This document shows, in pieces, positions 12,708 to 37,396 of a stretch of 48,380 nucleotides of DNA. Source of the stretch: Paracoccus sp. (in: a-proteobacteria) (GTDB lineage Bacteria > Pseudomonadota > Alphaproteobacteria > Rhodobacterales > Rhodobacteraceae); contig NZ_JAUNTJ010000022.1 in the NCBI RefSeq assembly GCF_030538755.1, forward strand, positions 1 to 48,380. Reading direction: 5' to 3'. The notes beneath the pieces are model-generated. The model ran no database searches. It was not told where the DNA came from and worked only from the letters and a program-made list of their open reading frames with translations. The stretch's first letter is position 1; each line of letters opens with the position of its first letter. The position numbers and the translations under genes are program-made.

Positions 12708-12711
12708 TATC

Positions 12712-15201: not shown

Positions 15202-15918
15202 AGCCGGCGCGCGCTGGCCGTTGCGGCAATGTCAGCGATGCTGACCTTTCTGCCCGCCCTGCCCGGCCATGCCGCCGGACAGTTCACGCCCCCCGCCGGC
15301 TGCCGGCTAGAGGTGACAGTGCAGAACCGCGGCTGCACCGTCAGCCAGCATTTCCGTTGTGACGCCGACCCCGAAGGCTATCAGCGCAGCGCGATCTTTT
15401 CGCAGGACGGGCTGACCTATCTGTCGGTGATCGACGCCGAAACCCGCTGGATCGAATCCGCCTCGCCCACGGTCGGGATGACCGACACGCTGGAGGACGA
15501 GGCCGAGGCCCATGCCAGCCTGTCGCGGCTGATCGAAACCGGGCGCGACGATTTCGATTTCTGGACCGTTTCCAACAGCGGCGAGCGGCTGCACCATCAG
15601 GGCTGGGACGAGCTGACCGGCGAAACCGTCATCATCGACGGGGTCGAACTGGAACAGACCCGGTTCCAGCTGACCACCCGCTTTGAAAACGGCGAAACCA
15701 TGCTGACCCGCAGCGGCCAGCAGTTCATCAGCCGTGTGATGGGCCGGTTCTATGGCGGGGTGGAAACCTCGACCGACTGGACCGGCGCGACCGTGAACAG
15801 CAATGACAGCCCCGTGACCTTTGCCTTTCCCGGCAAACCCGGTTTCGGCAGCATCACCCCTCAATACGACTGCGACATGCTGATGACGCAGCTTTCCCAA
15901 GGAAAGGCCCGGCTATGA
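15160..15918 (+). CDS. Secreted protein of unknown function between gltD and gltB
   Basis: A protein of about 252 residues starting at ATG 15160 (or the adjacent ATG 15163), just after gltD. The N-terminus is basic (MMHRSCTGCTQAVHSRR) and followed by a hydrophobic core ending AMLTFLPALPGHAAG, a clear Sec signal peptide with an Ala-x-Ala-type site. The mature part is acidic and has Cys in GCRLEV, GCTVSQ, FRCDAD and YDCDML, so disulfides in the periplasm are plausible. I do not recognise a domain. The stop overlaps the gltB start (ATGA), so the two are translationally coupled, which is odd for a periplasmic protein and a cytoplasmic synthase. The first codons lie in an 11-bp tandem repeat. Confidence 0.72.
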   Translation: MMHRSCTGCTQAVHSRRALAVAAMSAMLTFLPALPGHAAGQFTPPAGCRLEVTVQNRGCTVSQHFRCDADPEGYQRSAIFSQDGLTYLSVIDAETRWIESASPTVGMTDTLEDEAEAHASLSRLIETGRDDFDFWTVSNSGERLHHQGWDELTGETVIIDGVELEQTRFQLTTRFENGETMLTRSGQQFISRVMGRFYGGVETSTDWTGATVNSNDSPVTFAFPGKPGFGSITPQYDCDMLMTQLSQGKARL

Positions 15919-18900
15919 GCAACTGGCAAGAACAAGAACAGGCCCGCCGCGACTGGATGGCCGAACACAGCCTGTATCGGGCCGAGGACGAACATTCATC
16001 CTGCGGCGTCGGCTTTGTCGTCGATCTGGATGGCAAACCCAGCCGCAAGGTAGTGCAGAACGGCATCGACGCGCTGAAGGCGATCTGGCATCGCGGCGCG
16101 GTGGATGCGGACGGCAAGACCGGCGACGGCGCGGGCATCCATGTGCAGATCCCGGTGCCGTTCTTTTACGATCAGGTCCGCCGCACCGGCCACGAACCCG
16201 ACAAGGACAAGCTGATCGCCGTCGGTCAGGTATTTCTGCCGCGCACCGATTTCGGCGCGCAGGAACGCTGCCGGACCATCGTGGAAACCGAAGTCATCCG
16301 CATGGGCCATTACATCTATGGCTGGCGGCATGTGCCGGTGGACACCAGCGTTCTGGGCGAAAAGGCCAATGCCACCCGCCCGGAAATCGAACAGATCCTG
16401 ATCCGCTGCGACAAGGACATCGACCAGGATCAGTTCGAACGCGAGCTGTATATCATCCGCCGCCGCATCGAACGCGCGGCCGTGGCGGCGCAGGTGGCGG
16501 GGCTGTATTTCTGTTCGCTGTCCTGCCGCAGCATCATCTATAAAGGCATGATGCTGGCCGAGCAGGTGGCGGAATTCTACCCCGACCTCAAGGATGAACG
16601 CTTTGAATCGGCGTTCGCGATCTATCACCAGCGGTATTCGACCAACACCTTCCCGCAGTGGTGGCTGGCGCAGCCGTTCCGCATGTTGGCCCATAACGGC
16701 GAAATCAACACGCTGAAGGGCAATCTGAACTGGATGCGCAGCCATGAAATCCGCATGGCCAGCAGCGCGTTCGGCGATATGGCCGATGACATCAAGCCCA
16801 TCGTCCCCGCCGGTTCGTCGGACAGCGCCGCGCTGGATGCCGTGTTCGAGGTGATGGTGCGGTCGGGCCGCAGCGCGCCGATGACGAAAACGATGCTGGT
16901 CCCCGAGGCCTGGTCCAAGGCGACCACCGACATGCCGCAGGCATGGGCCGACATGTATGCCTATTGCAACGCCGTGATGGAGCCGTGGGATGGCCCCGCC
17001 GCGCTGGCCATGACCGATGGCCGCTGGGTCTGCGGCGGGCTGGACCGCAACGGCTTGCGCCCGATGCGCTATGTGGTGACGGGCGACAACCTGCTGATCG
17101 CCGGGTCCGAGGTGGGCATGGTGCCGACCGACGAATCCACCGCCCGCGAAAAGGGCGCGCTGGGTCCGGGGCAGATGATCGCCGTCGATATGCACGAGGG
17201 CAAGCTGTATCACGACACCGACATCAAGGACCGTCTGGCCGCCAGCCAGCCCTTTGGCGAGTGGATCGAAAAGGTCGCGCAGCCCTCGGACGGGATGGCC
17301 AAGCTGCCTGAAACCGCGCTGTTCACCGGCGAAGACCTGCACCGCCGCCAGATCGCCGCCGGCTACACCATCGAGGAACTGGAACAGGTTCTGGCCCCCA
17401 TGGCCGAGGACGGCAAAGAGGCGCTGGCATCCATGGGCGACGATACCCCCGCCGCCGTGCTGTCGCAGCAATACCGGCCGCTGTCGCATTTCTTCCGCCA
17501 GAATTTCAGCCAGGTGACGAACCCGCCCATCGACAGCCTGCGCGAAACGCGGGTGATGAGCCTCAAGACCCGGTTCGGCAACCTGAAAAACGTGCTGGAT
17601 GAATCCAGCGCGCAGACGGAAATCACCCTGCTGGAAAGCCCGTTTCTGGCGAATGGCGAATTCGATGAATTGATGCGCATGTTCGCCGGCACTGTCACGC
17701 AGATCGACTGCACCTTCCCCGATGGCGCCGGGCCAGAGGCCATGGCCGGGGCGCTGGCCCGCATCCGGGCCGAGGCCGAGGATGCCGTTCGTTCCGGCGC
17801 CGGTCACATCGTGCTGAGCGATCAGGCGCAGGGACAGGACCGGATCGGGCTGCCGATGATTCTGGCCACCAGCGCCGTGCACAGCTGGCTGGTGCAAAAG
17901 GGGCTGCGGACCTTTTGTTCGATCAATGTGCGGTCGGCGGAATGTATCGACCCGCATTATTTCGCCGTGCTGATCGGCTGTGGCGCGACCACGGTCAACG
18001 CCTATCTGGCGCAGGACAGCCTGGCCGAACGGATCGAACGCGGGTTGCTGGACAGCAACCTGACCGATGCAATGAACCGCTATCGCGAGGCGATTGACGG
18101 CGGCTTGCTGAAAATCATGGCCAAGATGGGGATTTCGGTCATCTCGTCCTATCGCGGCGGGCTGAATTTCGAGGCCGTGGGCCTGTCGCGCGCCATGGTG
18201 GCGGAATATTTCCCCGGTATGCACAGCCGCATTTCCGGCATCGGTCTTCACGGGTTGCAAGCCAAGCTGGAGGAAATCCACCAGAAGGGGTTCCACAGCG
18301 ACAGCGCCGATCTGCTGCCAGTGGGCGGTTTCTACAAAATGCGCCGCTCGGGCGAGAAACACGCGTGGGAGGCGAACACCATGCGCCTGCTGCAACTGGC
18401 CTGCGAGCGCGCGTCTTATGATGTGTGGAAACAATTCTCCGCCGCGATGCGGGCGAACCCGCCGATCCACATCCGCGACCTGCTGGACATCAAGCCGCTG
18501 GGCAAGCCGGTGCCGATCGAGGAAGTGGAAAGCATCACCTCGATCCGCAAGCGCTTCGTGACGCCGGGGATGAGCCTTGGCGCGCTGTCGCCCGAGGCGC
18601 ATATGACGCTGAACATCGCCATGAACCGCATCGGCGCGAAATCCGACAGCGGCGAGGGTGGCGAAGACCCGGCGCACAGCCATCCGCTGCCCAATGGCGA
18701 CAACCCCTGCGCCAAGATCAAGCAGGTGGCGTCGGGGCGGTTCGGGGTCACGGCGGAATATCTGAACGCCTGCGAGGAACTGGAAATCAAGGTCGCTCAG
18801 GGCGCGAAACCGGGCGAGGGCGGGCAGTTGCCCGGCATGAAGGTCACGTCGCTGATCGCGCGGCTGCGCCATTCCACGCCCGGCGTCACGCTGATTTCGC

Positions 18901-20450
18901 CGCCGCCGCACCATGATATTTACAGCATCGAGGATCTGGCGCAGCTGATCTATGACCTGAAACAGATCAACCCGCGCGCCAAGATCACGGTGAAACTGGT
19001 CGCCTCGTCCGGGGTCGGCACGATTGCGGCGGGCGTGGCCAAAGCCAAGGCCGATGTGATCCTGATTTCCGGCCATAACGGCGGCACCGGGGCCAGCCCC
19101 GCGACCAGCATCAAATTCGCCGGTCTGCCCTGGGAAATGGGCCTGACCGAGGCGCATCAGGTGCTGGCGATGAACCGCCTGCGCGAGCGGGTGACGCTGC
19201 GCACCGACGGGGGCCTGCGCACCGGGCGCGACATCGTGATGGCCGCGATGATGGGGGCCGAGGAATACGGCATCGGCACCGCCGCACTGATCGCCATGGG
19301 CTGCATCATGGTGCGCCAGTGCCAGTCGAACACCTGCCCGGTGGGCGTCTGCACGCAGGATGAAAAGCTGCGCGCGATGTTCAACGGCAGCGCCGACAAG
19401 GTGGTGAACCTGATTACCTTCTATGCGCAAGAGGTGCGCGAATTGCTGGCCGCCATCGGTGCGCGGTCGCTGGACGAGGTGATCGGGCGCGCCGATCTGC
19501 TGACTCAGGTCAGCCGCGGGGCCGCGCATCTGGACGATCTCGACCTGAACCCGCTGCTGATTACCGTCGATGGCTGGGACAAGATCGTTTACGACCGCTC
19601 GCGCCCGCGCAATGCGGTGCCCGACACGCTGGATGCGGAAATCATCCGCGATGCGGAACGGTTCTTTACCGATGGCGAAAAGATGCAGCTGTCCTATGCC
19701 GTGCGCAACACGCATCGCACCATCGGCACCCGCACCAGTTCGATGATCGTGCAGAAATACGGGATGCGCAACAGCCTGCAATCCGACCACCTGACCGTGC
19801 GCCTGACCGGATCGGCGGGACAATCGCTGGGCGCATTCGCCGCGCCGGGGCTGAAGATCGAGGTCTCGGGCGATGCCAACGACTATGTGGGCAAGGGCCT
19901 GTCGGGCGGCACCATCACCGTGCGCCCGCCGATGGCCAGCCCGCTGACCGCCGCCGATAACGTCATCATCGGCAACACGGTCCTGTATGGCGCGACCGAT
20001 GGTTTCCTGTTCGCGGCGGGCCGGGCCGGGGAACGCTTTGCCGTCCGCAACAGCGGCGCCAAGGTGGTGATCGAGGGCTGCGGCACCAACGGCTGCGAAT
20101 ATATGACCGGCGGCGTGGCGGTGATCCTGGGCCGCATCGGCGCGAACTTTGGCGCGGGGATGACCGGGGGCATGGCCTATCTGTATGATCCGGGTGGCGT
20201 GGCACGCGATTACATCAACGCCGAAACACTGGTGCTGTGCCCGGTGACGCAGGCGCATTGGGAAACGCAGTTGCGCGGCCTGATCGAGCGCCACCACGCG
20301 GAAACCGGATCGCTGCGCGCGGCGGCGATTCTGGCGGATTGGGATCAGGAAAAGGCCAATTTCCTGCAAATCTGCCCGAAAGAGATGCTGCCGCATCTGT
20401 CGCATCCGATTGCGGATGTGAACGATCTGGCGGCCGTTCCCGCCGAGTGA
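15915..20450 (+). CDS. gltB: Glutamate synthase large (alpha) subunit
   Basis: A 1511-residue subunit, the usual size. Cys30 in EHSSCGVGFV is the N-terminal nucleophile exposed after removal of a 29-residue propeptide; the class II amidotransferase domain runs to about residue 430. The central and FMN-binding synthase domains follow (GEGGEDPAHSHPL, then ISGHNGGTGASP), with CIMVRQCQSNTCPVGVC supplying the [3Fe-4S] ligands. The C-terminal GXGXG beta-helix (for example GGTITV, GNTVLYGATDG, GCGTNGCEYMTGG) is intact. It produces glutamate from glutamine and 2-oxoglutarate with GltD. The start overlaps the preceding gene's stop by four bases. A GC-rich hairpin follows the stop. Confidence 0.97.
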   Translation: MSNWQEQEQARRDWMAEHSLYRAEDEHSSCGVGFVVDLDGKPSRKVVQNGIDALKAIWHRGAVDADGKTGDGAGIHVQIPVPFFYDQVRRTGHEPDKDKLIAVGQVFLPRTDFGAQERCRTIVETEVIRMGHYIYGWRHVPVDTSVLGEKANATRPEIEQILIRCDKDIDQDQFERELYIIRRRIERAAVAAQVAGLYFCSLSCRSIIYKGMMLAEQVAEFYPDLKDERFESAFAIYHQRYSTNTFPQWWLAQPFRMLAHNGEINTLKGNLNWMRSHEIRMASSAFGDMADDIKPIVPAGSSDSAALDAVFEVMVRSGRSAPMTKTMLVPEAWSKATTDMPQAWADMYAYCNAVMEPWDGPAALAMTDGRWVCGGLDRNGLRPMRYVVTGDNLLIAGSEVGMVPTDESTAREKGALGPGQMIAVDMHEGKLYHDTDIKDRLAASQPFGEWIEKVAQPSDGMAKLPETALFTGEDLHRRQIAAGYTIEELEQVLAPMAEDGKEALASMGDDTPAAVLSQQYRPLSHFFRQNFSQVTNPPIDSLRETRVMSLKTRFGNLKNVLDESSAQTEITLLESPFLANGEFDELMRMFAGTVTQIDCTFPDGAGPEAMAGALARIRAEAEDAVRSGAGHIVLSDQAQGQDRIGLPMILATSAVHSWLVQKGLRTFCSINVRSAECIDPHYFAVLIGCGATTVNAYLAQDSLAERIERGLLDSNLTDAMNRYREAIDGGLLKIMAKMGISVISSYRGGLNFEAVGLSRAMVAEYFPGMHSRISGIGLHGLQAKLEEIHQKGFHSDSADLLPVGGFYKMRRSGEKHAWEANTMRLLQLACERASYDVWKQFSAAMRANPPIHIRDLLDIKPLGKPVPIEEVESITSIRKRFVTPGMSLGALSPEAHMTLNIAMNRIGAKSDSGEGGEDPAHSHPLPNGDNPCAKIKQVASGRFGVTAEYLNACEELEIKVAQGAKPGEGGQLPGMKVTSLIARLRHSTPGVTLISPPPHHDIYSIEDLAQLIYDLKQINPRAKITVKLVASSGVGTIAAGVAKAKADVILISGHNGGTGASPATSIKFAGLPWEMGLTEAHQVLAMNRLRERVTLRTDGGLRTGRDIVMAAMMGAEEYGIGTAALIAMGCIMVRQCQSNTCPVGVCTQDEKLRAMFNGSADKVVNLITFYAQEVRELLAAIGARSLDEVIGRADLLTQVSRGAAHLDDLDLNPLLITVDGWDKIVYDRSRPRNAVPDTLDAEIIRDAERFFTDGEKMQLSYAVRNTHRTIGTRTSSMIVQKYGMRNSLQSDHLTVRLTGSAGQSLGAFAAPGLKIEVSGDANDYVGKGLSGGTITVRPPMASPLTAADNVIIGNTVLYGATDGFLFAAGRAGERFAVRNSGAKVVIEGCGTNGCEYMTGGVAVILGRIGANFGAGMTGGMAYLYDPGGVARDYINAETLVLCPVTQAHWETQLRGLIERHHAETGSLRAAAILADWDQEKANFLQICPKEMLPHLSHPIADVNDLAAVPAE

Positions 20451-24929: not shown

Positions 24930-25846
24930 ACCCGGCGCGCGGCATCCTGATGAAGCTGGGCAGCGTTGTGCTGTTCGTTGCCATGGCCGCGCTGATAAAG
25001 GCGACGGCGGGGGCGGTGCCGCCGGGGCAGCAGGTGTTCTTTCGCTCGGCCTTTGCGGTGCCGGTGATCCTGATCTGGCTGGTCCGGCGCGGCGATCTGT
25101 CGGTCGGGCTGCGGGTGCGCGATCCGATGGGCCATGTCTGGCGCGGGCTGATCGGCACTGCGGCCATGGGCTTTGCCTTTGCCGCGCTTGGGCTGTTACC
25201 CCTGCCCGAGGTCACCGCCATCGGCTATGCCGCGCCGCTGCTGGTTGTCATCTTTGCCGCGATGTTTCTGGGCGAGGATGTGCGCCTGTTCCGCCTGTCT
25301 GCCGTGGCGCTGGGGCTGGTCGGGGTGCTGATCGTGCTGTCGCCGCGCCTGACGCTGATCGGCGACGGCCTGTCGGCAACGCAGACATTGGGCGCGGTCT
25401 TTGCGCTGACCGGGGCGATTCTGGCGGCACTGGCGCAGATCTTCATTCGCAAGCTGGTGCAAGGTGAAAGGACATCGGCCATCGTCTTTTGGTTTTCCGT
25501 GACCGGGGCGCTGTTGTCGCTGACGACGCTGCCCTTTGGCTGGGCTGTGCCGGATCTGCGGGTAGCCGGGCTGCTGATCGTGGCGGGCCTGCTGGGCGGG
25601 CTGGCGCAGATCATGCTGACCTCGGCCTATCGTTATGCCGATGCCTCGCTGGTGGCGCCGTTCGAATATGCCTCGATGCTGTTTGCGCTGGGGATCGGTT
25701 ACGCCGTGTTCGACGAACTGCCCGCCCCGACGATGCTGGCCGGGGCGGCGATCATCATGGCGGCGGGCGTGCTGATAATCTGGCGCGAACGCCGCCTGGG
25801 AATCGAGCGCGCGCGCCAGCGCAAGGCCACGCCGCCCCAAAGCTAA
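24926..25846 (+). CDS. DMT-superfamily (EamA) permease
   Basis: A 306-residue membrane protein with about ten hydrophobic segments arranged as two EamA repeats. The first covers [18 protein letters not shown] to LTLIGDG and the second begins [19 protein letters not shown]. It ends with a short basic tail ([15 protein letters not shown]). Members export amino acids, metabolites or drugs; the substrate cannot be told from sequence. It starts inside the queG stop (ATGA) and is likely cotranscribed with queG. Its own stop overlaps the stop of the convergent RTX gene by four bases, leaving no room for a terminator. Confidence 0.88.
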
Positions 25847-28722
25847 AGCAGCAGATCATTGTGATCGACCGGCACCGCGCCCAGCAGAATCAGCACGAAA
25901 TCCGGCACGCCGTCGCCATCCACATCGCCGCGCAGCACCGTGCGGTTCGCACCATATTCCGCCCTGAGCTGGCCCGGCGCGGAAAAGCGGCTGCTGCCGA
26001 TAAAGTCAAAGCCGATGGCCGACAGGTCGATCTTGTCCTGACCGCGGGTGAAATCCTCGATCACGTCGATGCCGCGTTGCGACGAGGATTCGGCGGCGGC
26101 ACCGTAAAAGAACACGTCCCGCCCGGCCCCGCCGTTCAGCGTATCGGCACCCAGCCCGCCGCGCAGCGTATCGTTGCCGACGCCGCCGAACAGCACATCG
26201 CGGCCGCCATCGCCCAGCAGAAAATCATGGCCGCGCCCCCCGAACAGGCTGTCGTTGCCCGAACCGCCTGCCAGCCTATCGTTGCCGTCATCGCCATGCA
26301 GCACGTCGTTGCCATCGCCCCCCGCCATGCTGTCATCGCCCGCGCCACCGCGTAGCAGATCATCGCCCGCACCGCCGCGCAGCGTGTCGTTGCCGTGACC
26401 GCCCAGCAGCGTGTCACGCCCGTTGCCCCCTTCCAGCAGGTCGTTGCCCGAGCCGCCGTCAAGCCGGTCATTCCCCGATCCGCCCAGCAGCGTATCATTG
26501 CCGCCGCCGCCAAACAGCCGGTCGTTGCCGGGGCCGCCATGGACGTAATCATTGCCATCGCCGCCGCGCAGGGTATCGTTGCCCGCTTCACCGAACAGCC
26601 GGTCGTTGCCGTTGTTCCCTTCGAGGCTGTCATCGCCGATGCCGCCATACAGCGTGTCATGGCCGTTGCCGCCGAACAGCCGGTCATTACCCTCGCCGCC
26701 CGACAGATAGTCATTGCCGGAACCGCCCAGCAGCGTGTCGCGACCGTTGCCGCCATACAGGCTGTCGTTGCCTGCCCCGCCCTCTAACCTGTCGTGGCCG
26801 TTGTTGCCGTGCAGGATGTCATTGCCATTGCCGCCCAGCAGGTGATCGTTGCCGGAACCGCCGCGCAGCGTGTCATGGCCGTTGTCGCCATACAGCGTAT
26901 CGTCGCCCGCATCGCCCGACAGCGAATCATTGCCCGAACCGCCCCACAGAATGTCATTGCCGCTGCCGCCCAGGATCAGGTCATCGCCCGGACCGCCGCG
27001 AATGCGGTCATCGCCGTTGCCGCCATAGATGCTGTCATCGCCGCCTTCGCCCCGGATGGTGTCATTGCCGCTGTCGCCATAGAGGATGTCAGCCTCGTTA
27101 CTGCCGAAGATCAGGTCGTGGCCACCGCGCCCGTAAATGGTCGAGCCGATGGCCGAGGCCCGCAGCACATCCGCCCCGTTCGAGCCGGTGATGCTGGTCG
27201 GCAGATTCGCCGGGTCGTAATTGGTGATCGGGAACATGTCATTGGTAAAGAAACTGACCGGCAGGCTGGTGCCGGTGGTCGTGAAAATGTCGATGACCCC
27301 TTCGTGAAAGCGGATCTTGGCCCCCCAGCTTTGCGGAAGGATGGTCAGTTGATAGACGCTGCGCACCATGCCGAGATTGGAAAAATCCAGCCGGTCCACC
27401 CCCACCTCGAAATCGCGGATGGCGATGCGGCCCTTGATGTTCGAGGGCACAAAGGTATCTGCCCCCGCCCCCCCCAGCAGCGCGATCGAGTTTTCACCGG
27501 CAACCAGCGTGTCATTGCCTGCCCCGCCGTGCATCCAGATCGCATCCGGCCCGGCGATCATGTAATCGTCGCGGTTGGTGCCGGTCGGGCGCACGCCCGA
27601 CACGGTGCCGGTCATCCCCGCCGGGCCGGGTTCGACAACCAGTTGCGTGATCCCGGCCTTGGTCGCGCTGGATACGAACAGCACGATCTTGCCATCCATG
27701 ACCTGCGCCTTGATCGCGGTGACACGCGCCAGCGTCAGCGTGTGATCGTCGGCCAGGGTTTCCAGATGCACCAGCCGCCCGTCGGGGCGCAGCATGAACA
27801 TGGTAATGCCGTCATCGGCCCCGCCGACAAAGACATAGGCCCGCCCGTCCAGCACCACCGAATCCATCGCCGTGGTGCGCAAAAACCGCGTCGAGCCTTC
27901 GTCGATGACATGATCCACCGCCGTCATCGAGCCGTCGCGCCCCAGCCGGAACACCGTCAGCGAAGATGAATCGGACGCGCCGACCACCACATAGGTCTGC
28001 CCGGCGATGGTGGCCGCCGTCGCAATGCGCGGGGCGGCAAAGCCGGTCATATCCTCGCTGCCCATATATTCGGTGCGCCGGATGGTGCCATTGGCGGCAA
28101 TCGTGTGGCTGGCGATGAAATTGCCCAGTGACGACAGGGTAATCAGCACCTGTTGCGTGCCGACCTTGACGGGCAGGACAAAATCCAGCCCCGCCTCGGG
28201 CCGGGTGGCGGATGGCGGGGCGGGCGATTGCGCCAGCGCCGTCATCGCGCCATCGCTGGCGACCCGGAACAGGGTGAAGGCGGTGGATTTTTCCTGCGTC
28301 GCATAGACGAAATCACCCTGCGCGGTGGAAAACTGCCCGACTGAAACGATCGCCGGGCCGACCTGCCGCAGCGCGGTGGCACCGCTGTCCGCCGCCCGCG
28401 ACACCGCCCCCGATGCCGAAATCGGCATGGCCATCATCGTGCCGCTGCCGATATTCGACATGGCCACGATGGCGCTGTCGCCCATCTGCATGACGTTGAC
28501 GCGCGGTTCGCGCGAATAGGACACGGCCCCGGCATAGGCGGTGGCCCCGATCAGACTGATCTGCGTATCTGCCCCGCCGATCTGCATGGCGGTGATGCCG
28601 CCGCCGACATGAGTGGCCGAATACAGCACATGCTGCCCGTCCACCGTTGCGATGGACAGATCCGTGATATTCGACAGAAATCCGGCCCCTGTAACAGTGG
28701 CCACATGGCGAAAGCCGACCAT
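25843..28722 (-). CDS. Large RTX-repeat calcium-binding protein, probable type I secretion substrate
   Basis: A 959-residue acidic protein with no Sec signal. Residues about 1–370 contain repeating beta-propeller-like blades (for example GQHVLYSATHVGGGITAMQI and GQTYVVVGASDSSSLTVFRL). Two isolated RTX units follow near residue 400 (GGAGNDTLV, GGAGADTFV). Residues 531–872 are 38 consecutive nonapeptides of GGxGxDxLx type. The C-terminus (IDVIEDFTRGQDKIDLSAIG, then DVDGDGVPDFVLILLG and HNDLLL) resembles the serralysin C-terminal domain and type I secretion signals. No ABC or membrane-fusion gene is adjacent. An in-frame TGA six codons upstream fixes the start at ATG 28722, although its ribosome site is weak. 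The 117-bp upstream spacer is AT-rich and probably holds the promoter. A surface adhesin or structural protein is likely; no enzyme motif is seen. Confidence 0.88.
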   Translation of the reverse strand: MVGFRHVATVTGAGFLSNITDLSIATVDGQHVLYSATHVGGGITAMQIGGADTQISLIGATAYAGAVSYSREPRVNVMQMGDSAIVAMSNIGSGTMMAMPISASGAVSRAADSGATALRQVGPAIVSVGQFSTAQGDFVYATQEKSTAFTLFRVASDGAMTALAQSPAPPSATRPEAGLDFVLPVKVGTQQVLITLSSLGNFIASHTIAANGTIRRTEYMGSEDMTGFAAPRIATAATIAGQTYVVVGASDSSSLTVFRLGRDGSMTAVDHVIDEGSTRFLRTTAMDSVVLDGRAYVFVGGADDGITMFMLRPDGRLVHLETLADDHTLTLARVTAIKAQVMDGKIVLFVSSATKAGITQLVVEPGPAGMTGTVSGVRPTGTNRDDYMIAGPDAIWMHGGAGNDTLVAGENSIALLGGAGADTFVPSNIKGRIAIRDFEVGVDRLDFSNLGMVRSVYQLTILPQSWGAKIRFHEGVIDIFTTTGTSLPVSFFTNDMFPITNYDPANLPTSITGSNGADVLRASAIGSTIYGRGGHDLIFGSNEADILYGDSGNDTIRGEGGDDSIYGGNGDDRIRGGPGDDLILGGSGNDILWGGSGNDSLSGDAGDDTLYGDNGHDTLRGGSGNDHLLGGNGNDILHGNNGHDRLEGGAGNDSLYGGNGRDTLLGGSGNDYLSGGEGNDRLFGGNGHDTLYGGIGDDSLEGNNGNDRLFGEAGNDTLRGGDGNDYVHGGPGNDRLFGGGGNDTLLGGSGNDRLDGGSGNDLLEGGNGRDTLLGGHGNDTLRGGAGDDLLRGGAGDDSMAGGDGNDVLHGDDGNDRLAGGSGNDSLFGGRGHDFLLGDGGRDVLFGGVGNDTLRGGLGADTLNGGAGRDVFFYGAAAESSSQRGIDVIEDFTRGQDKIDLSAIGFDFIGSSRFSAPGQLRAEYGANRTVLRGDVDGDGVPDFVLILLGAVPVDHNDLLL
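26107..27132 (-). repeat. 38 tandem 27-bp units coding RTX nonapeptides
   Basis: These encode residues 531–872 of the RTX protein without interruption, from GRGGHDLIF to GGAGRDVFF. Unit DNA is similar enough to allow slippage or recombination in frame, changing repeat number without a frameshift. Confidence 0.9.
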
Positions 28723-29598: not shown

Positions 29599-29722
29599 GG
29601 CTGGCCCCTTGTGGTTCAGACTGAACTTGCAGCTATACCATTGCGGGGCCAAGCGAAAGTCTGCCCATCGACAGCCCGCCCCGCCCTGCCCTAAGCTGGC
29701 CGGGGGAAGACGGAGGATACCG

Positions 29723-30565
29723 ATGAAACTGCTGCGCTATGGTCCCAAGGGGCAGGAAAAGCCCGGTCTGCTGGACGATCAGGGCCGCATCCGCGACCTG
29801 TCGGCTCATGTCCCCGACATCGCGGGCGCGGTGCTGACGCCCGACGGGCTGGCCCGGCTGGCCGCGCTGAACCCCGACGATCTGCCGCTGGTCGCGGGCA
29901 CGCCGCGCATCGGCCCCTGTGTCGGGCAGGTAGGCAAGTTCATCTGCATCGGCCTGAATTACGCCGACCACGCCGCCGAGGCAGGGATGGCGGTGCCATC
30001 CGAACCCATCGTCTTCAGCAAATGGACCAGCGCCATTTCCGGGCCGGATGACGATGTGGAAATCCCGCGCGGCTCGACCAAAACCGATTGGGAGGTGGAA
30101 CTGGGCGTCATCATCGGCAAGCCCGGCAAATATATCGACCCGGCCAAGGCGCTGTCGCATGTCGCCGGTTATTGCGTGGTGAACGACATATCCGAACGCG
30201 ACTGGCAGACGGCGCGCGGCGGCACATGGGACAAGGGCAAGGGCTTTGACAGTTTTGGCCCCATCGGCCCGTGGCTGGTCACCCCGGACGAGGCAGGCGA
30301 CCCCGGCAATCTGCGCCTGTGGCTGGAGGTGGACGGCATCCGCCGTCAGGACGGATCGACCGCCACAATGGTCTTTGGCGTGGCGCAGATCATCGCCTAT
30401 CTGTCGCAATTCCTGTCACTGCAACCCGGCGATGTCATCGCCACCGGCACCCCGCCCGGCGTGGGCATGGGGCAAAAACCGCCGGTGTTTTTGCAACCCG
30501 GACAGGTGATGCGGCTGGGGATCGAGGGCTTGGGCCAACAGACCGCCCGCACCGTGGCGGGCTGA
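29723..30565 (+). CDS. Fumarylacetoacetate hydrolase-family protein
   Basis: A 280-residue FAH-superfamily enzyme, starting at ATG 29723 behind GGAGG. It has a small N-terminal domain and the FAH fold starting at FICIGLNYADHAAEAG. Metal ligands are visible as the Glu pair in TDWEVELGVIIG and the Asp in VVNDISERDWQ, and GDVIATGTPPGVGMG is the conserved C-terminal loop. Members act as hydratases, isomerases, decarboxylases or C–C hydrolases on oxo-acids, for instance ureidoglycolate lyase-like, oxaloacetate decarboxylase or 2-keto-3-deoxy-sugar acid dehydratases. The neighbours do not identify the substrate. It lies directly left of the low-GC island. Confidence 0.88.
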   Translation: MKLLRYGPKGQEKPGLLDDQGRIRDLSAHVPDIAGAVLTPDGLARLAALNPDDLPLVAGTPRIGPCVGQVGKFICIGLNYADHAAEAGMAVPSEPIVFSKWTSAISGPDDDVEIPRGSTKTDWEVELGVIIGKPGKYIDPAKALSHVAGYCVVNDISERDWQTARGGTWDKGKGFDSFGPIGPWLVTPDEAGDPGNLRLWLEVDGIRRQDGSTATMVFGVAQIIAYLSQFLSLQPGDVIATGTPPGVGMGQKPPVFLQPGQVMRLGIEGLGQQTARTVAG

Positions 30566-31114: not shown

Positions 31115-33046
31115 CTATCGCACCCCATTCCTCAACTGTTCGAACGAGCAGATTTTTCCGGCGATTGCACTGGCCATGACAGTTGGTGGGCTTGCGAGCC
31201 ATGTCGAGCCGGGGCCGCCACGGCCCGGAAAATTTCGATTGATGGCCGAAATGGTCACTTGATCGGTCGTTTCTGACACGCCCGGTCCACATTGGCCGCA
31301 GGACCCGCAGGCTGGGCCCAGAATCTCGGCGCCGACCGCGTCGAAGGTCTCGAAATAGCCCTTTTTCCGGCAATAATCGCGCACCTGCACGGTGCCGCAT
31401 TGCAGATACAGCTTAACGCCCGGCGCGACCTTCAGCCCGTGGTCCTGCGCCCATTTTGCGACCGCATAATAATTGTCAAAGTCGTCACGCTTACCAGCCG
31501 TGCAGGAGCCGCCATAAGCAATATCGACCCTGACCTCTTCACACAGATCGATCAGGGGCAGGCCGTTTCCCGGATCGCCAGGGCGAGCAAGCATTGGTCC
31601 GATGGCCGAGCAATCCAGCGTGATTTTGGCGGTATATTCCGCACCCTCATCGGAACGCATCCAGTCCTCAAGCTGGAAATCAATGCCGCGTCGCTCCTTC
31701 AGAAAGCGGACTGTCTCGGCATCCGGCGCGCAAAGTCCGGTCAAGCCGCCCAGTTCGGCTACCATATTGGTCATGGTGGTGCGCTCGTCCGTAGACATGG
31801 CATCGATAACCGGTCCGGCAAACTCAAAGATCTTGCCCACACCGCCACCATCACGGATGAAAGGCTGTGCGAGCAGGTGCAAAAGGATATCCTTGGCGGT
31901 CACGCCAACCCGTTGCTCTCCCTCCAGCCAAATGAGCAAGCTTTCGGCCATGGTCAGGCGTGCTGCTCCAGTCATGAATGCGTTGGCCATGTCGGTGGTA
32001 CCGACGCCATAGGCGAAGGTGCCGATGGCGCCCGAATGCGGCGTGTGACTGTCGGTCCCGACGACGATCCGCCCCGGAAGGGCATAGCTTTCGGCCATCA
32101 TCGCGTGGCTGATCCCCTCGCTGCCCTCCTCGCCGATCAGATAGCCATGGTCAGTCAGTCCGTATTCCTTGCCAAAGGCCCGGTGTGCCTCGCTGATGGC
32201 GCGGACATCGGGCAAAAGGCCCAGCTTCAGATGCGTGGGCGAGCGGTGGGCATAGGACAGGTGATCCTCGAACAGCAGGATGTTCTTCGGATCGAACAGC
32301 TTCAGCGGCCGACCGTAATATTCATGCAGCATATGCGCCGCCATGGCTGTGTAGTATTCGTGGATGAAACGGAAGTCGGCACGAACGAACCCGCCGGTGC
32401 CGGGTTCGGCATCCCAGTCCAGCCCGTCAACCTGCAACGCGAAGCGATCAACGATCTTCTGCGCGAAGGTGCGCGGTCCCTGCCCCTCGACCTGCCGCAA
32501 CCGCGCATTGGTAAGGTATTTCTCGCCATAGGCCAGCAATCCGCCCGCCCGCAGGATCGCCTGCGCCAAAGGATCGCGGCCTGCGACCAACTCGTCGATG
32601 CTGATATCCTCACCCGAACGGATGCGGTTGATAAGCCCGAAATCGGTCGAGGTGAACAGCCCGATATTGTCGCAGTTCTGGCGATAGATGCGCTCGAACC
32701 CCTCGGCGATGACCAACCGGATGCCCGCCGAATATTCCGCCAGCGGCGAATGTTCGCGTGACGAGCCTTTGCCATAGCGCCGCCCGCCGACCAGCACAGA
32801 GAAGCCGCCCTCGGCAATGGCGTTTTCGCCCACGGGCTTTTCGTCGTTGATTGTCAGCCCGGTATGGGCATAGCGGCCCAGGCGGCCGTCATAATTCAGC
32901 ATGACCTGCAGCGGCGTGATCTCGTCGGTCGAGATATCGCTGCGCAATTCACCGGCAGCGGCCAGCGGAATATCGCTACCCGCAATCTGGCGTTTGACGG
33001 CATCGGCCGCGGTGCCAAGGATCAGGATGCGTCCGTCGAATTTCAT
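31115..33046 (-). CDS. Aconitase-superfamily hydro-lyase with N-terminal swivel domain
   Basis: A 643-residue protein. ATG 33046 is used because it overlaps the upstream stop (ATGA) and opens the conserved part; 93 residues of low-complexity Arg-rich frame before it are not credible. Residues 1–165 form a LeuD/aconitase swivel domain (DISTDEITP 37–45, GKGSSREHSP 92–101). Residues about 195–643 form a LeuC-like catalytic part (GTDSHTPHSGAIGTFAYGVG from 330). Cluster ligands are probably Cys515 (GGSCTAGK), Cys580 and Cys583 (ACGSCGQC). The order is reversed relative to fused aconitase A, and the helical N-terminal domain of AcnB is absent. It should dehydrate, hydrate or isomerise a hydroxy di- or tricarboxylate; the substrate is unknown. 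It is last in the dct operon, after the aldolase. Confidence 0.88.
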   Translation of the reverse strand: MKFDGRILILGTAADAVKRQIAGSDIPLAAAGELRSDISTDEITPLQVMLNYDGRLGRYAHTGLTINDEKPVGENAIAEGGFSVLVGGRRYGKGSSREHSPLAEYSAGIRLVIAEGFERIYRQNCDNIGLFTSTDFGLINRIRSGEDISIDELVAGRDPLAQAILRAGGLLAYGEKYLTNARLRQVEGQGPRTFAQKIVDRFALQVDGLDWDAEPGTGGFVRADFRFIHEYYTAMAAHMLHEYYGRPLKLFDPKNILLFEDHLSYAHRSPTHLKLGLLPDVRAISEAHRAFGKEYGLTDHGYLIGEEGSEGISHAMMAESYALPGRIVVGTDSHTPHSGAIGTFAYGVGTTDMANAFMTGAARLTMAESLLIWLEGEQRVGVTAKDILLHLLAQPFIRDGGGVGKIFEFAGPVIDAMSTDERTTMTNMVAELGGLTGLCAPDAETVRFLKERRGIDFQLEDWMRSDEGAEYTAKITLDCSAIGPMLARPGDPGNGLPLIDLCEEVRVDIAYGGSCTAGKRDDFDNYYAVAKWAQDHGLKVAPGVKLYLQCGTVQVRDYCRKKGYFETFDAVGAEILGPACGSCGQCGPGVSETTDQVTISAINRNFPGRGGPGSTWLASPPTVMASAIAGKICSFEQLRNGVR

Positions 33047-33759
33047 GAGAGGGCCTCTTCTTTGCTGCGCAGCCACTCGACATGGCTCATGCGGGTTGCG
33101 CGGGCTGTGGCGCGCTCGGCCGCCGTCATGCGGGCGGCGTCCTGGCGCAATTGTTCTTCTCGACGTGCCAGTTCCTTCCCCATGGCAAGGATCGCGGCCG
33201 CGGCATGTTGCGGGACAATGACGGTTCCATCCTGATCGCCAAGAACAAGATCGCCGGGATGGATGGTCACTGTGCCGCCTTCGGGCGCGGGCAGTGTTAC
33301 GGGCGCGTTCTGTCCGGTCAGACAAAAGCGGCGGGCTCCATTCAACGGGATTGTGCCAGCAGCCCGGACGGGCAGTCCGATTGCGGACAGTTCATGCAGA
33401 TCACGGACCAGACCATCCGTAATCAGTCCCGCGCAGCCAGCACTGGCCAATTCGGCAGCCAGCAACCCGCCGGTAACGGCGCCGCCGCGAAAGCCGTTGG
33501 TCGCAAGGACAAGCACCGAAGGCCCGCTGAGCAGAAGGGGAAGCCCGTAGAGCGGCATGGTGGCCGATTTGCAGGGCCTGTTTACCGTATTGACCTGTCG
33601 TTGACCCTGAACGCAAACCGCCGGACCGCAGAAACTGACGGCCTCACCGACTGCCGCAATGCTCGGGTCGAGTGTCTGACTGTGATACCCGGCCTCATCC
33701 AGAACGTCGCTGATCAGTGCACTGCCAAGCTGTTTGAACTCGTTGAACATGGACATCAT
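33043..33759 (-). CDS. RraA-family class II pyruvate aldolase (HMG/CHA aldolase-like)
   Basis: A 238-residue RraA-fold protein. RraA itself inhibits RNase E, but the aldolases of this fold share G-x20-R-D-x2-E/D, and that pattern is exact here: Gly98, Arg119, Asp120 and Glu123 (within GGLLAAELASAG and DGLVRDLHE). 4-Hydroxy-4-methyl-2-oxoglutarate and 4-carboxy-4-hydroxy-2-oxoadipate aldolases release pyruvate, and many also decarboxylate oxaloacetate. The gene overlaps the dctM stop (ATG 33759 or 33756) and the next start (ATGA), so it is coupled on both sides. It probably acts on the product of the adjoining hydro-lyase. Confidence 0.85.
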   Translation of the reverse strand: MMSMFNEFKQLGSALISDVLDEAGYHSQTLDPSIAAVGEAVSFCGPAVCVQGQRQVNTVNRPCKSATMPLYGLPLLLSGPSVLVLATNGFRGGAVTGGLLAAELASAGCAGLITDGLVRDLHELSAIGLPVRAAGTIPLNGARRFCLTGQNAPVTLPAPEGGTVTIHPGDLVLGDQDGTVIVPQHAAAAILAMGKELARREEQLRQDAARMTAAERATARATRMSHVEWLRSKEEALS

Positions 33760-35060
33760 ACCTGCCTTGGTCCCATCAGCAGATCAGGCAGGAACGTGGA
33801 CAATACCGGCACGAAGGTCAGGATCAGCAGGACCAGAAGCGCCACCAGCAGGAAGGGCATGGTCGCACGCGCGCCCTGGACGATCGAAATGCCGCCGATC
33901 TGGCTGGCGATGGCCAGCACGATGCCAATCGGCGGCGTGATCAGCCCGATACACAGGTTCACCGTTACGACTACGCCAAAGTGGATCGGATCAATGCCAA
34001 GCTGCTGACTGATCGGGAACAGGACCGGCAGCAGCATGACTTTGGCAGCATTCACCTCCATCACCATTCCGATGAACAAGAGCAGGATGTTCACGAGGAT
34101 CAGAAAGGTGATCGGTGAGGTGACAAAGCTTTGCAGCCATGCACCAAAGCTTTCGGGCGCATGGACCCATGCCAGCATCCAGGCGAACAGCGACGCTCCG
34201 GCAAGGATGATCATCACCGCAGCTGTCAACCGCATTGCAGAAGTCAGCGAGGCGACAATCACTTTCCAGCTGAGTTCACGATAGACCAGCCCCGATACCA
34301 GCATCGCATAGATGCAGAGGACGACCGAGGCTTCCGTCACCGTGAACAGTGCCGACAGAATACCGCCCAGCAGCAGAACGGGCGTAATCAGCGCCGGAAA
34401 GGCGATCACGAACTTCTCCCAGATCAGGCTGATCGGGGCGGGCGGTTGCGTCGGATAGCGGTTGCGCCGCGCGATGCCCCATGCCGCGATCATCAAGGCG
34501 AGACCCCACAGAAGACCCGGGATCAGCCCGGCCAGAAACATCCGCATGACCGATTGATCGGTGATATAGGCATATACAATCCAGGCAATCGAGGGCGGGA
34601 TCAGGGGCGAGATCGGCGAGGACGCCGCCGTGATGCCGACCGAATAGCCCGCCGGATAGCCTGCCTTTTTCATCTCGGGAATGAAGGTGCCGCCGATGGC
34701 AGCCGTATCGGCCACCGCCGAACCGGAAATACCACCGAACATAAGCGAGCTGAGCACGTTCGAGGTGGCCAGCCCGCCGGTAAAGCGACCCACCAGCACA
34801 TTGCCGAAATCAATCAGCCGGGACGATATCCCGCCATTCGACATGATCGTACCTGCGAACAGGAAAGCCGGGATCGCCATCAGCGAAAAACTGTCCATCC
34901 CCGCGAACAGCCGTTGCGGTGCAATAACGGGATTGGCACCGCCATGTGCAAAGATCGCCGCAAAGGAGCCCGCGATGATCGCAATAGCCAGCGGAACGCC
35001 GATCAGGATACAGAAGGTGATGACGCCCGTCAGGATCAGTGCCAGTGTCGCCAATTCCAT
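33756..35060 (-). CDS. dctM: TRAP transporter large permease
   Basis: A 434-residue DctM-type permease with about twelve hydrophobic segments. Typical motifs are seen: FAGMDSFSLMAIPAFLFAG, GGISGSAVADTAAIGG and SSPISPLIPPSIAWIVYAY. It is the ion-coupled channel of the TRAP system, importing a carboxylate delivered by the DctP protein. GGAGGG precedes ATG 35060, three bases after the dctQ stop. The stop overlaps the aldolase start. Confidence 0.94.
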   Translation of the reverse strand: MELATLALILTGVITFCILIGVPLAIAIIAGSFAAIFAHGGANPVIAPQRLFAGMDSFSLMAIPAFLFAGTIMSNGGISSRLIDFGNVLVGRFTGGLATSNVLSSLMFGGISGSAVADTAAIGGTFIPEMKKAGYPAGYSVGITAASSPISPLIPPSIAWIVYAYITDQSVMRMFLAGLIPGLLWGLALMIAAWGIARRNRYPTQPPAPISLIWEKFVIAFPALITPVLLLGGILSALFTVTEASVVLCIYAMLVSGLVYRELSWKVIVASLTSAMRLTAAVMIILAGASLFAWMLAWVHAPESFGAWLQSFVTSPITFLILVNILLLFIGMVMEVNAAKVMLLPVLFPISQQLGIDPIHFGVVVTVNLCIGLITPPIGIVLAIASQIGGISIVQGARATMPFLLVALLVLLILTFVPVLSTFLPDLLMGPRQV

Positions 35061-35063
35061 GGC

Positions 35064-35543
35064 TCAGCCCTCCTGCTCGTCGAGGCGATTCAAACGCGAC
35101 AGCACAAGCACCAGCGCCATCAGCGCCGCTCCGATGGGGATTGCCAGATAGGGAAGCGACATCTTGATCGGCAACCCGGTCGAACTCTGCCGTGCCCCGA
35201 TCCCGGCCAGCGTCCAACCATACCAGGCAATCAGGCCGCAAACCGTCAGTGAAATCGCATCGCGCAGCCATGAAATCGCAATCTTGGCCTTTTCGGGCAG
35301 CATCTCGACGAAGGTATCAATCAAAATATGCTCGTTCTTCTCCATCAGGATCGCCGAGCCCAGCATGGTGATCGCAACAAGAAGATAGCGGCCCAGTTCC
35401 TCGGCCCACATGGTAGGCGCGCCCAACACGAAGCGCGCAATCACCTGAAGGCCGATGACCAGGAGCATCGCAACAAGAAGCAGATTGGCCGTCAGCCCAA
35501 GGAAAGAAATCAGACCGCGGGTCGTCCTTTGCATGATATGCAT
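35064..35543 (-). CDS. dctQ: TRAP transporter small permease
   Basis: A 159-residue DctQ-type subunit with four predicted membrane segments, starting LISFLGLTANLLLVAMLLV and including the family region APTMWAEELGRYLLVAITML. It partners DctM in the inner membrane. ATG 35543 lies eight bases after AAGGA. It is 40 bp after dctP and directly before dctM, the usual order. Confidence 0.92.
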   Translation of the reverse strand: MHIMQRTTRGLISFLGLTANLLLVAMLLVIGLQVIARFVLGAPTMWAEELGRYLLVAITMLGSAILMEKNEHILIDTFVEMLPEKAKIAISWLRDAISLTVCGLIAWYGWTLAGIGARQSSTGLPIKMSLPYLAIPIGAALMALVLVLSRLNRLDEQEG

Positions 35544-35583
35544 CGCCGTATTCCTTTATTAGCTCGCCCTTGCAGGAAGCTTG

Positions 35584-36573
35584 CTATTGAACGGCCTGTA
35601 TTTTCTCGACCCACGGCTTCAGGTCGGGAAACTGATCGACAACTGCGGCTGCCTTTTCACGGAAAGGTGCAAGATCGGGCTCGATGACCGTCACGCCGTA
35701 GGATTCCAACTGCTCCCGATCAGCCATATCTTGCACGCGCTCCTGCTCGGAGCCCCAGGCCAGAGCCGCGCGACCTTCTTCGAGGATGATCCGCTGCTCT
35801 TCCTCGCTGAGGCTGGAGAAGCGCGCATCGTCGAAGATCAGCGTATAGGCGCCATAGACATGATCCGTCATGATTACATAATCTGCCGCTTCATAATATT
35901 TCGAGCGCAGATGTGCCGAAAGCGGATTCTCCACCGCATCAATGATGCCTGACTGCAGCCCGCTATAGACTTCGTTCGAGGACATCGGCGTCGGGCTGGC
36001 GCCAAGCGTACTCCATGTAGCGGCAAAGATATCGATGTTCGGCACTCGGATCTTCAGACCGGCCAGATCTTCGACGCTGTTGATCTCTCGTTTGGATGCC
36101 ATCTCGCGAGGGCCACGCATGCCGGCGCCGATCAGGCGAAAACCGGTGCGGTCGGTGATTTCGGCATAAAGCTCCTCACCAACCTGGCCGCCAAATACGG
36201 CATCGAAATGCGCCGGATCACGGAACAGATAGGGATAGCTTTCGATGGCCGCGATCTCGTCATAGGTATTGAGCGAGGCGATCACCGTCATCACAATGTC
36301 ATTGGTGCCGATGGTCATGGCCTCCAGCGTCTCGCGCGGGCTCCCGGTCGAGCCTGACAGTGACAGTTGAACCTCGATCTCACCGCCTGATGCCTCGGCC
36401 ACGCCATCGGCAAAACGCTGCGCTGCCTGCCCCCAGACGGTCTGCGGCGTTTCAACTGAAGCCAATTTCAGGGTCGTCTTGGCAAATGCCGGTCCTACGC
36501 TTGCGCCCATGACCAGAGCTATGGCTGTGGCTGTGGCTTTGGCTCTGGCTGTGGCAGTGCGTAAAAATTTCAT
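35584..36573 (-). CDS. dctP: TRAP transporter substrate-binding protein
   Basis: A 329-residue periplasmic DctP-family protein. ATG 36573 is chosen over the adjacent GTG because AGGA lies five bases upstream. The signal peptide carries an alternating Ala repeat (ATARAKATATAIA) and ends GPAFAK. The mature part begins TTLKLASVETPQTVWGQAA. GLKIRVPN, with the Arg that usually binds the substrate carboxylate, and YSGLQSGIIDAVENPLS are typical. It binds an organic acid and hands it to DctQM. It is the first gene of the operon, divergent from the GntR gene. The substrate is not predictable. Confidence 0.93.
   Translation of the reverse strand: MKFLRTATARAKATATAIALVMGASVGPAFAKTTLKLASVETPQTVWGQAAQRFADGVAEASGGEIEVQLSLSGSTGSPRETLEAMTIGTNDIVMTVIASLNTYDEIAAIESYPYLFRDPAHFDAVFGGQVGEELYAEITDRTGFRLIGAGMRGPREMASKREINSVEDLAGLKIRVPNIDIFAATWSTLGASPTPMSSNEVYSGLQSGIIDAVENPLSAHLRSKYYEAADYVIMTDHVYGAYTLIFDDARFSSLSEEEQRIILEEGRAALAWGSEQERVQDMADREQLESYGVTVIEPDLAPFREKAAAVVDQFPDLKPWVEKIQAVQ
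36517..36558 (-). repeat. Hexanucleotide repeat in the dctP signal-peptide region
   Basis: Seven 6-bp units of GGCTnT type on the plus strand (AGCTAT, GGCTGT twice, GGCTTT, GGCTCT, GGCTGT, GGCAGT) encode alternating Ala and Thr/Arg/Lys/Ile. Changes in unit number would stay in frame. Confidence 0.8.
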
Positions 36574-36589
36574 CACATTCCTACCACGA

Positions 36590-36618: not shown

Positions 36619-36645
36619 ATTATACCAAATGAAAGGTGGAATCAA
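36619..36645 (-). promoter_or_regulatory. Predicted dctP promoter
   Basis: On the minus strand TATAAT (36619–36624) matches the -10 consensus exactly. TTGATT (36640–36645) is a fair -35 at a short 15-bp spacing. Transcription would begin near 36612, about 40 bp before the dctP start. Confidence 0.6.
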
Positions 36646-36688
36646 TGACAGGGCACTGCTAACCTTCCGGACACAAAAGGAGGCCCTG

Positions 36689-37396
36689 ATGCTGAACGCC
36701 GAACCGGTCCGTAAAAAGCGGCTCTACGAAGATGTCGTGGAGCAGATCCAGGCAGCGATTGTCGACGGCAGCCTCAAACCCGGCGACTTCCTTCCTGCTG
36801 AGCGGGATCTTTGCGAGCGGTTCGAGGTGAGCCGTACCGCCATTCGGGAGGCGCTGTTTGCGTTGCAGACCAGCGGGTTGATCGAGTTGGTAAACGGTCG
36901 CCGCGCGCGCGTGGTCGAGCCGACCGCCGAACGGTTGATCGAAGAACTGAGCGGACCAGCACGCTTTGTGCTGACACGACCAGAACGCTTGCGGCAATTG
37001 CAGGAAGCCAGAATGCTATTTGAGGGGTTTCTGGCACGGGTCGCTGCTCGCTCTGCAACGGCAGACCAGATCGCAGACATCGAAGCCGCGCTTGAGGCCA
37101 ACAAGAAATCCATCACGGATCCAGAAGAGTTTGTCCGAACCAACATCGACTTCCACCTTGCTATCGCAAGGGTCAGCGGCAATGTCTTCGTCGACTCTCT
37201 GCACAACGCCGTGCAAGCATGGCTGGCAGAGCACCGCCGCGTTGCCATTCAGCAGCCGGGCGCAGCCGAACGGGCCTATCGCCGCCATGTCGAGATATTC
37301 GACGCAATCAAGGTCGGAAACACAGACCAAGCAGAGACCGCTATGTCCACGCACCTTCAAGAATCTATTGATGCTTATTGGGCAGTAGTTGAGTAG
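36689..37396 (+). CDS. GntR/FCD-family transcriptional regulator
   Basis: A 235-residue FadR-type regulator. ATG 36689 follows GGAGG; a longer frame is possible but lacks a ribosome site. The winged HTH is seen in LYEDVVEQIQAAIVDGSL, LPAERDLCERFEVSRTAIRE and LQTSGLIELVNGRRARVV. The C-terminal FCD domain has the metal-binding pattern in NIDFHLAIARVSGN and a later His in RRHVEIFDAI. FCD regulators bind small carboxylates and usually repress. It is divergent from dctP with a palindrome between them, so it most likely controls the TRAP/hydro-lyase/aldolase operon in response to substrate. Confidence 0.9.
   Translation: MLNAEPVRKKRLYEDVVEQIQAAIVDGSLKPGDFLPAERDLCERFEVSRTAIREALFALQTSGLIELVNGRRARVVEPTAERLIEELSGPARFVLTRPERLRQLQEARMLFEGFLARVAARSATADQIADIEAALEANKKSITDPEEFVRTNIDFHLAIARVSGNVFVDSLHNAVQAWLAEHRRVAIQQPGAAERAYRRHVEIFDAIKVGNTDQAETAMSTHLQESIDAYWAVVE

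Follow-up and report, generated by a model that had tools for sequence, protein, structure and literature searches.

The window analyzed here is a 48,380-nt stretch of Paracoccus sp. contig NZ_JAUNTJ010000022.1 (assembly GCF_030538755.1, positions 1-48,380), and within it we examined a compact operon, dctP-dctQ-dctM-rraA-ACN. The operon joins a tripartite ATP-independent periplasmic (TRAP) transporter to an RraA-fold protein and to a one-chain protein of the aconitase superfamily, which we call ACN. On balance, and judging from sequence and gene neighborhoods, we favor a catabolic role, in which a malate-type acid would be imported, ACN would act on it as a hydro-lyase or isomerase, and RraA would cleave the product; in the wider ACN family, the cleaving step would fall to interchangeable C-C-cleaving modules. 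The features concerned are as follows.

31115-33046, minus strand: ACN, predicted single-chain, swivel-first aconitase-superfamily hydro-lyase, 643 aa (PF00330 279.1 bits, PF00694 48.1 bits)
32654-32947, minus strand: core of the ACN swivel (domain 4), about residues 34-131, with the loop V48-M49-L50-N51 and the GSSRE motif (S95)
33043-33759, minus strand: rraA, RraA-fold predicted class II lyase (aldolase/decarboxylase), 238 aa (PF03737 81.7 bits vs 24.5)
33756-35060, minus strand: dctM, TRAP large permease (TIGR00786 411 vs cut-off 268.45; Pfam DctM)
35064-35543, minus strand: dctQ, TRAP small permease (PF04290 110.2 bits vs 28.3)
35584-36576, minus strand: dctP, TRAP solute-binding protein (PF03480 219.5 bits; NCBIfam dctP 180.3 vs cut-off 175.05)
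36629-37396, plus strand: divergent GntR/FCD gene, probable regulator of the operon (PF00392 and PF07729)

The first-pass annotation had called the five genes an operon, and their coordinates, common strand and Pfam families bear this out. The 4-bp overlaps that it had noted among the last three genes are present as ATGA at both dctM/rraA and rraA/ACN; dctQ and dctM are separated by 3 bp, and dctP and dctQ by 40 bp. The dctP start is a GTG at 36576, and the next codon (36573) is an ATG. Matches to DctP, DctQ, DctM, RraA-like, Aconitase and Aconitase_C all exceed the Pfam gathering scores, and the presence of DctP, DctQ and DctM together identifies the transporter as a TRAP system. The GC content of the operon genes is 0.58-0.62, compared with 0.64 in the flanks. 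A scan for promoters and terminators returned sites no more frequently than in shuffled sequences.

The same operon was sought in other genomes and was found in genome G257 (locus L016). Because the five genes and the GntR gene recur there in the same order, the grouping is not a matter of chance. Identity to the window is 77% for ACN, 52% for RraA, 79/69/67% for DctM/Q/P and 71% for GntR. Using an E-value cut-off of 1e-90 (1e-60 for the order) in taxon samples that overlap, we found ACN in 1 of 394 genomes of the family (its own), 2 of 292 of the order (its own and G257), 2 of 385 of the class and 5 of 398 of the phylum; the 20 genomes of the same genus listed in the order sample gave no match. 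The natural reading is a scattered cassette, perhaps acquired horizontally. A phage origin was considered and rejected, PHROGs having yielded a single weak match for ACN, to a family without known function, and nothing for RraA.

It had been proposed that the 643-residue enzyme carries its swivel domain ahead of the LeuC-like part, and our alignments agree: residues 34-151 align with the small (swivel) subunits of isopropylmalate isomerase (IPMI) and homoaconitase, and the LeuC-like catalytic part spans residues about 214-634. Membership in the aconitase superfamily is indicated by the Aconitase and Aconitase_C domains and by three cluster cysteines. In comparison with aconitase 1aco, C515/C580/C583 of ACN lie at C358/C421/C424, D332-S333-H334 at 165-167, H314 at 147, and R604/R609 at 447/452, arginines whose roles we take to be the familiar ones. 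ACN residues 83-150 match residues 630-699 of 5acn, a range rather than a residue alignment, which would place S95 at the catalytic Ser642 if the match is ungapped there. The cysteines, D332-S333-H334, H314, R604, R609 and S95-S96-R97-E98 are invariant in 30 family members. The roles of the cluster cysteines and of Ser642 in aconitases are covered in the available part of PMC8184944.

ACN has in common with LeuC/LeuD (archaeal-type IPMI and homoaconitase) a LeuC-like catalytic part and an IPMI-like swivel, and its best solved relatives are 4kp1/4nqy and 3vba. Unlike those two-subunit enzymes, ACN is one chain with the swivel first, and it falls short of their cut-offs (leuC, 159 of 560 bits; PRK00402, 271 of 385). 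Family members are 39-77% identical to ACN, whereas LeuC-type proteins reach about 29-34% in the catalytic part. In a tree of the catalytic part, made by a quick method from 18 rows with long branches flagged and no fungal row, 13 family members group together (98% by the Shimodaira-Hasegawa-like approximate likelihood ratio test, SH-aLRT), next to LeuC and apart from AcnA. The available part of PMC8184944 names eight kinds and lists AcnB, AcnX type I and fungal IPMI as swivel-first; the domain order of ACN is therefore not new. As in ACN, the swivel of AcnB and AcnX type I precedes domains 1-2-3 in one chain (PMC8184944, same part); unlike AcnB, ACN has 643 aa, no HEAT Pfam match and only 62.4 of 1287.2 bits to the acnB model, and unlike AcnX, it has no AcnX Pfam match (only PF00330 and PF00694 at E <=0.01). 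The single-chain aconitate hydratase type PRK07229 gives ACN its top NCBIfam score (290.8 bits) and is of similar length (647 positions), yet the score is under half the cut-off (612), and because PRK07229 positions 97-411 match ACN residues 310-634, its catalytic part comes first, unlike that of ACN. Yeast IPMI also has its catalytic part first. A passage of PMC8184944, in the part available, conflicts with that order, and we leave the two side by side: it gives fungal IPMI as a single, swivel-first chain (4-linker-1-2-3), as in ACN insofar as a description can be compared. If the passage is right, fungi already provide a single-chain, swivel-first IPMI, of which the ACN family would be a bacterial counterpart.

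The specificity loop bears on the substrate. In homoaconitase this loop reads Y-L-R-T, with Arg as the key residue, and aligns with V48-M49-L50-N51, placing a Leu of ACN at the Arg position; the corresponding residues are Y-L-V in the IPMI of M. jannaschii and Y-N-L-T in that of P. horikoshii. According to the available part of PMC7308503, the loop region determines substrate preference. The Leu of ACN suggests an uncharged substrate side group, which makes aconitate-type or tricarboxylate acids (aconitate, tricarballylate) less likely. The first-pass scheme of import, aconitase-type hydro-lyase and metal-dependent C-C lyase is supported as an inference; the tricarboxylates among its candidate substrates are disfavored. 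Other branches of the family have T-R, T-H, V-H, S-H or Y-Y at loop positions 50-51, so that substrates may differ between branches.

Two metal motifs occur in RraA-fold lyases, D-x20-R-D and G-x20-R-D-x2-E/D. The window RraA has the second (G98-x20-R-D-x2-E), exactly as claimed at first pass, and shares both this metal-binding motif and family PF03737 with 4-hydroxy-4-methyl-2-oxoglutarate/4-carboxy-4-hydroxy-2-oxoadipate (HMG/CHA) aldolase and the RraA-like lyases; compared with HMG/CHA aldolase, it has a longer C-terminus and scores below the curated cut-offs. Of the 25 RraA-type genes that lie 6 kb or less from a family gene (that of the truncated locus L082 included), 22 carry D/E-x20-R-D (19 D, 3 E), two (the window and L024) carry G-x20-R-D-x2-E, and one (L067) carries neither. 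The E form is not among the two motifs above, and we take it to be equivalent by charge. One or the other of two motifs is present in most homologues, where it is required to bind the metal and for catalysis, and decarboxylation of oxaloacetate is a further activity of the aldolase (PMC5065237, available part). Because nearly all of the neighbors carry these lyase motifs, the ones labeled RNase E regulators are probably lyases.

These data also bear on a more conventional account, in which ACN would be a plain aconitase, a 2-methylcitrate-type or a leucine-pathway isomerase, and RraA would regulate RNase E. General family names are in keeping with it, as is the annotation of short RraA neighbors as RNase E regulator, one that was tested passing that NCBIfam cut-off (144.1 vs 136). 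We consider it very unlikely, however: the same genome carries separate AcnA-type and LeuC/LeuD genes, ACN misses the aconitase, AcnD, AcnB and LeuC cut-offs and indeed that of every NCBIfam model shown (25 of 26 matching models), and the RraA neighbors nearly all have lyase motifs. The 30 family members match largely the same NCBIfam models, by E-value only for the 29 besides ACN.

A second alternative is that the imported acid is a ring-cleavage product from outside. The RraA-fold aldolase 3noj, with an alignment over residues 82-206, acts on CHA, and CHA is chemically citrate-like. Against this, the operon has no dioxygenase or other meta-cleavage gene, the loop has Leu rather than Arg, which disfavors an extra carboxylate, and the CHA-aldolase models are not reached; we regard this origin as quite unlikely.

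To place the operon among its relatives, we drew on a genome-collection scan with at least 585 pattern matches, of which 576 were confirmed as relatives of any degree and the best 80 (mostly Burkholderiales by their titles) were kept, and on plasmid records, of which 33 of 141 matching ones cover at least 80% of the ACN protein and 14 of the 33 were taken. With G257 and the window there are 96 distinct ACN genes, 95 of them in the tree; left out were the duplicates L034 and L057, the truncated L082 (from the tree counts), and L101-L104 and L112-L115, which are not in the 95. The neighbor counts rest on TBLASTN with 24 reference proteins, and a GC-frame gene caller was also used. An RraA-type gene is found at most 6 kb from 24 of the 95 family genes (counted by locus, 22 of 93), against an expectation of about 0.9; this rough figure, computed for RraA only, comes from six member genomes, which contain 22 RraA genes in 32.7 Mb (x 14 kb x 95). 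CoA-transferase and/or 3-hydroxy-3-methylglutaryl-CoA (HMG-CoA) lyase-like genes (HMGL/CaiB) lie equally close to 28 of the 95, with a lyase-type match in 22 and the transferase alone in 6. Both RraA and HMGL/CaiB occur in 3 of the 95, where about 7 would be expected if they were independent, as for alternative modules. Within the same distance are a fused indolepyruvate oxidoreductase (IOR) in 27, a binding protein of the tripartite tricarboxylate transporter (TTT) type in 52, a major facilitator superfamily (MFS) transporter in 24, TRAP genes in 6, isopropylmalate dehydrogenase (IPMDH) in 5 and 4-hydroxyphenylpyruvate dioxygenase (HPPD) in 3. The fewest changes needed on the tree are 14 for RraA, 14 for HMGL/CaiB, 13 for IOR, 7 for TTT, 5 for MFS, 5 for TRAP, 4 for IPMDH and 2 for HPPD, and the associations with RraA, HMGL/CaiB and IOR arose or were lost many times.

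Several loci deserve separate mention. Seven (L007, L009, L012, L013, L043, L044 and L088) have LysR-ACN-TctC-RraA on one strand, with RraA 1.0-1.1 kb after ACN, behind the TTT binding protein; L036 has TctA in addition to a set of this type. The pairing of ACN with RraA recurs with another type of transporter (TTT) and another RraA subfamily. In L069 it is IPMDH (392 bits, cut-off 353.2), not RraA, that follows TctC, and in a Roseomonas locus (L008) a 751-aa chain fuses the lyase with the CoA-transferase. The genes HMGL-CaiB-HPPD-MFS-ACN share a strand in L010 and L015, and the HPPD of L015 scores above its cut-off (391 bits vs 277). The Streptomyces sp. KN37 plasmid (L011) has LeuA-ACN-IPMDH, the gene order of alkylmalate chain elongation. 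Of the five IPMDH neighbors, we count only those of L011 and L069 as support; those of L097 and L100 are 4.3-4.4 kb off on the other strand, and that of L053 is split into two overlapping frames. TRAP genes adjoin ACN in L040 (DctM, DctP) and L113 (a DctM match), on the other strand.

From these observations we propose the following sequence of events. The GntR protein would probably control the operon, and DctPQM, TRAP by sequence, would import an organic acid anion. ACN, a candidate IPMI-like one-chain Fe-S hydro-lyase, would remove water from, and add it back to, a malate-type dicarboxylate whose side group is not a carboxylate, and so convert 2-substituted, 3-substituted or unsaturated forms into one another. 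RraA, as a metal lyase, might then perform a retro-aldol cleavage of R-C(OH)(COOH)-CH2-CO-COOH to pyruvate and R-CO-COOH, or might decarboxylate a substituted oxaloacetate from a dehydrated tartrate-type acid. In relatives, ACN would feed a CoA-transferase and an HMG-CoA-lyase-like enzyme, splitting 2-R-malyl-CoA into R-CO-COOH and acetyl-CoA, or alternatively would feed IPMDH. Because HMGL/CaiB and IPMDH use 2- and 3-substituted malates, respectively, and the relatives of ACN interconvert both, the family would most simply consist of substituted-malate isomerases or hydratases. The 4-hydroxy-2-oxo intermediate proposed at first pass is retained as one option for the RraA version; the CoA-transferase/HMG-CoA-lyase-like and IPMDH neighbors of the relatives point to substituted malates as the chemistry of the family.

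Several findings weigh against this proposal. There is no oxidoreductase in the operon, so that a plain alkylmalate would provide no obvious substrate for RraA; an oxo group or a second hydroxyl must be present on the acid from the start. The closest solved chain to DctP, 4pc9 (E 2.1e-50), is named only as C4-dicarboxylate type, and its ligands, which we take to be sugar acids, would point elsewhere. RraA lies far below the cut-offs of both HMG/CHA-aldolase models (56 of 304.5 and 64 of 179 bits). Among the operon genes it is also the one least conserved in G257 (the 52% noted above), where E replaces the G of the motif. No RraA gene lies within 6 kb of 71 of the 95 family genes, and 46 of the 95 have neither module. 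Because 50 label shuffles need more changes than the tree does (19-24 for RraA, 21-28 for HMGL/CaiB and 19-27 for IOR), the associations are partly inherited, and the 24 and 28 cases cannot be counted as independent. Finally, P. horikoshii IPMI, which has Leu in its loop, is described with dual specificity (in a title cited in the available part of PMC8184944), which weakens the loop argument.

The likeness to 4pc9 leads to a third alternative, a sugar-acid or diacid operon in which DctP would import an aldonate- or aldarate-type acid, ACN would be a dehydratase, and RraA a 2-keto-3-deoxy-type aldolase or a dehydratase/decarboxylase. The GntR gene matches the NanR model best (234.5 of 260 bits). 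A nearby gene of the fumarylacetoacetate hydrolase (FAH) family at 29711-30565 (plus strand), convergent and 0.5 kb from the operon end, resembles 2,4-didehydro-3-deoxy-L-rhamnonate hydrolase (410 of 500 bits), and in L096 a mannitol-dehydrogenase-family gene (11944-13431, minus strand) adjoins the family gene. The RraA-family protein FlDet is reported to be a KDGR (2-keto-3-deoxy-hexarate) dehydratase/decarboxylase in the available part of PMC8563752. The HMG-CoA-lyase-like, IPMDH and HPPD neighbors of the relatives do not fit, however, and aconitase-type enzymes are known to act on malate-like units. The neighborhoods were checked with the 24 reference proteins and selected recurrent neighbors, no search being aimed at sugar-acid genes. 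We judge a sugar-acid operon unlikely.

A broader version of the substituted-malate proposal is possible, though we hold it with considerable doubt. The swivel-first LeuC-like enzymes would be a further, as yet undescribed bacterial subfamily of the aconitase superfamily that opens the catabolism of plant-type 2-substituted malates and tartrates through interchangeable CoA-dependent, oxidative or CoA-free (RraA) modules, with the window as the CoA-free, TRAP-fed version; the HPPD operons might convert eucomic acid (4-hydroxybenzyl-malate) to 4-hydroxyphenylpyruvate and acetyl-CoA. No paper on eucomic or piscidic acid catabolism was found in the open-licence literature. Nor was a described pathway with the gene set of the window found there, in line with the first-pass statement, although the restriction of the search to open-licence papers makes this absence weak evidence. 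The searched databases and the same literature held no characterized permuted family with a known substrate and the same operon. In the parts available, PMC12290011 (itaconate/methylsuccinate) has no aconitase accompanied by HMG-CoA lyase, CoA transferase and TTT, and PMC9007349 has no match for aconitase, isopropylmalate or RraA.

If the substituted-malate proposal is true, the scattered ACN family, which several records label only 'aconitase family protein', gains a testable function as the first enzyme acting on branched or aryl malate-type acids, ahead of alternative routes for breaking the carbon chain, and RraA neighbors now called RNase E regulators become metabolic lyases.

We also wish to record several observations made in passing. 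In L011, LeuA-ACN-IPMDH adjoins polyketide synthase/nonribosomal peptide synthetase (PKS/NRPS) and crotonyl-CoA carboxylase genes, as if a starter unit were extended by the alkylmalate route. The HPPD match of L010 (6307-7379) is in two pieces. In a Variovorax locus (L066) and a Caenimonas locus (L079), two swivel-first aconitase genes flank an RraA and a LysR gene. The family gene of a Pseudomonas locus, L090 (and, by eye, L093), follows genes for a 333-aa protein with no Pfam match, an aminotransferase and an FAD/NAD(P)-binding protein; a locus of this type may be biosynthetic. Elsewhere in the window, 25843-28722 (minus strand) encodes a 959-aa protein with a long RTX-like run of glycine/aspartate repeats, as judged by eye from the translation, and 15915-20450 holds very long open frames on both strands of the same stretch (1511 and 1469 aa).

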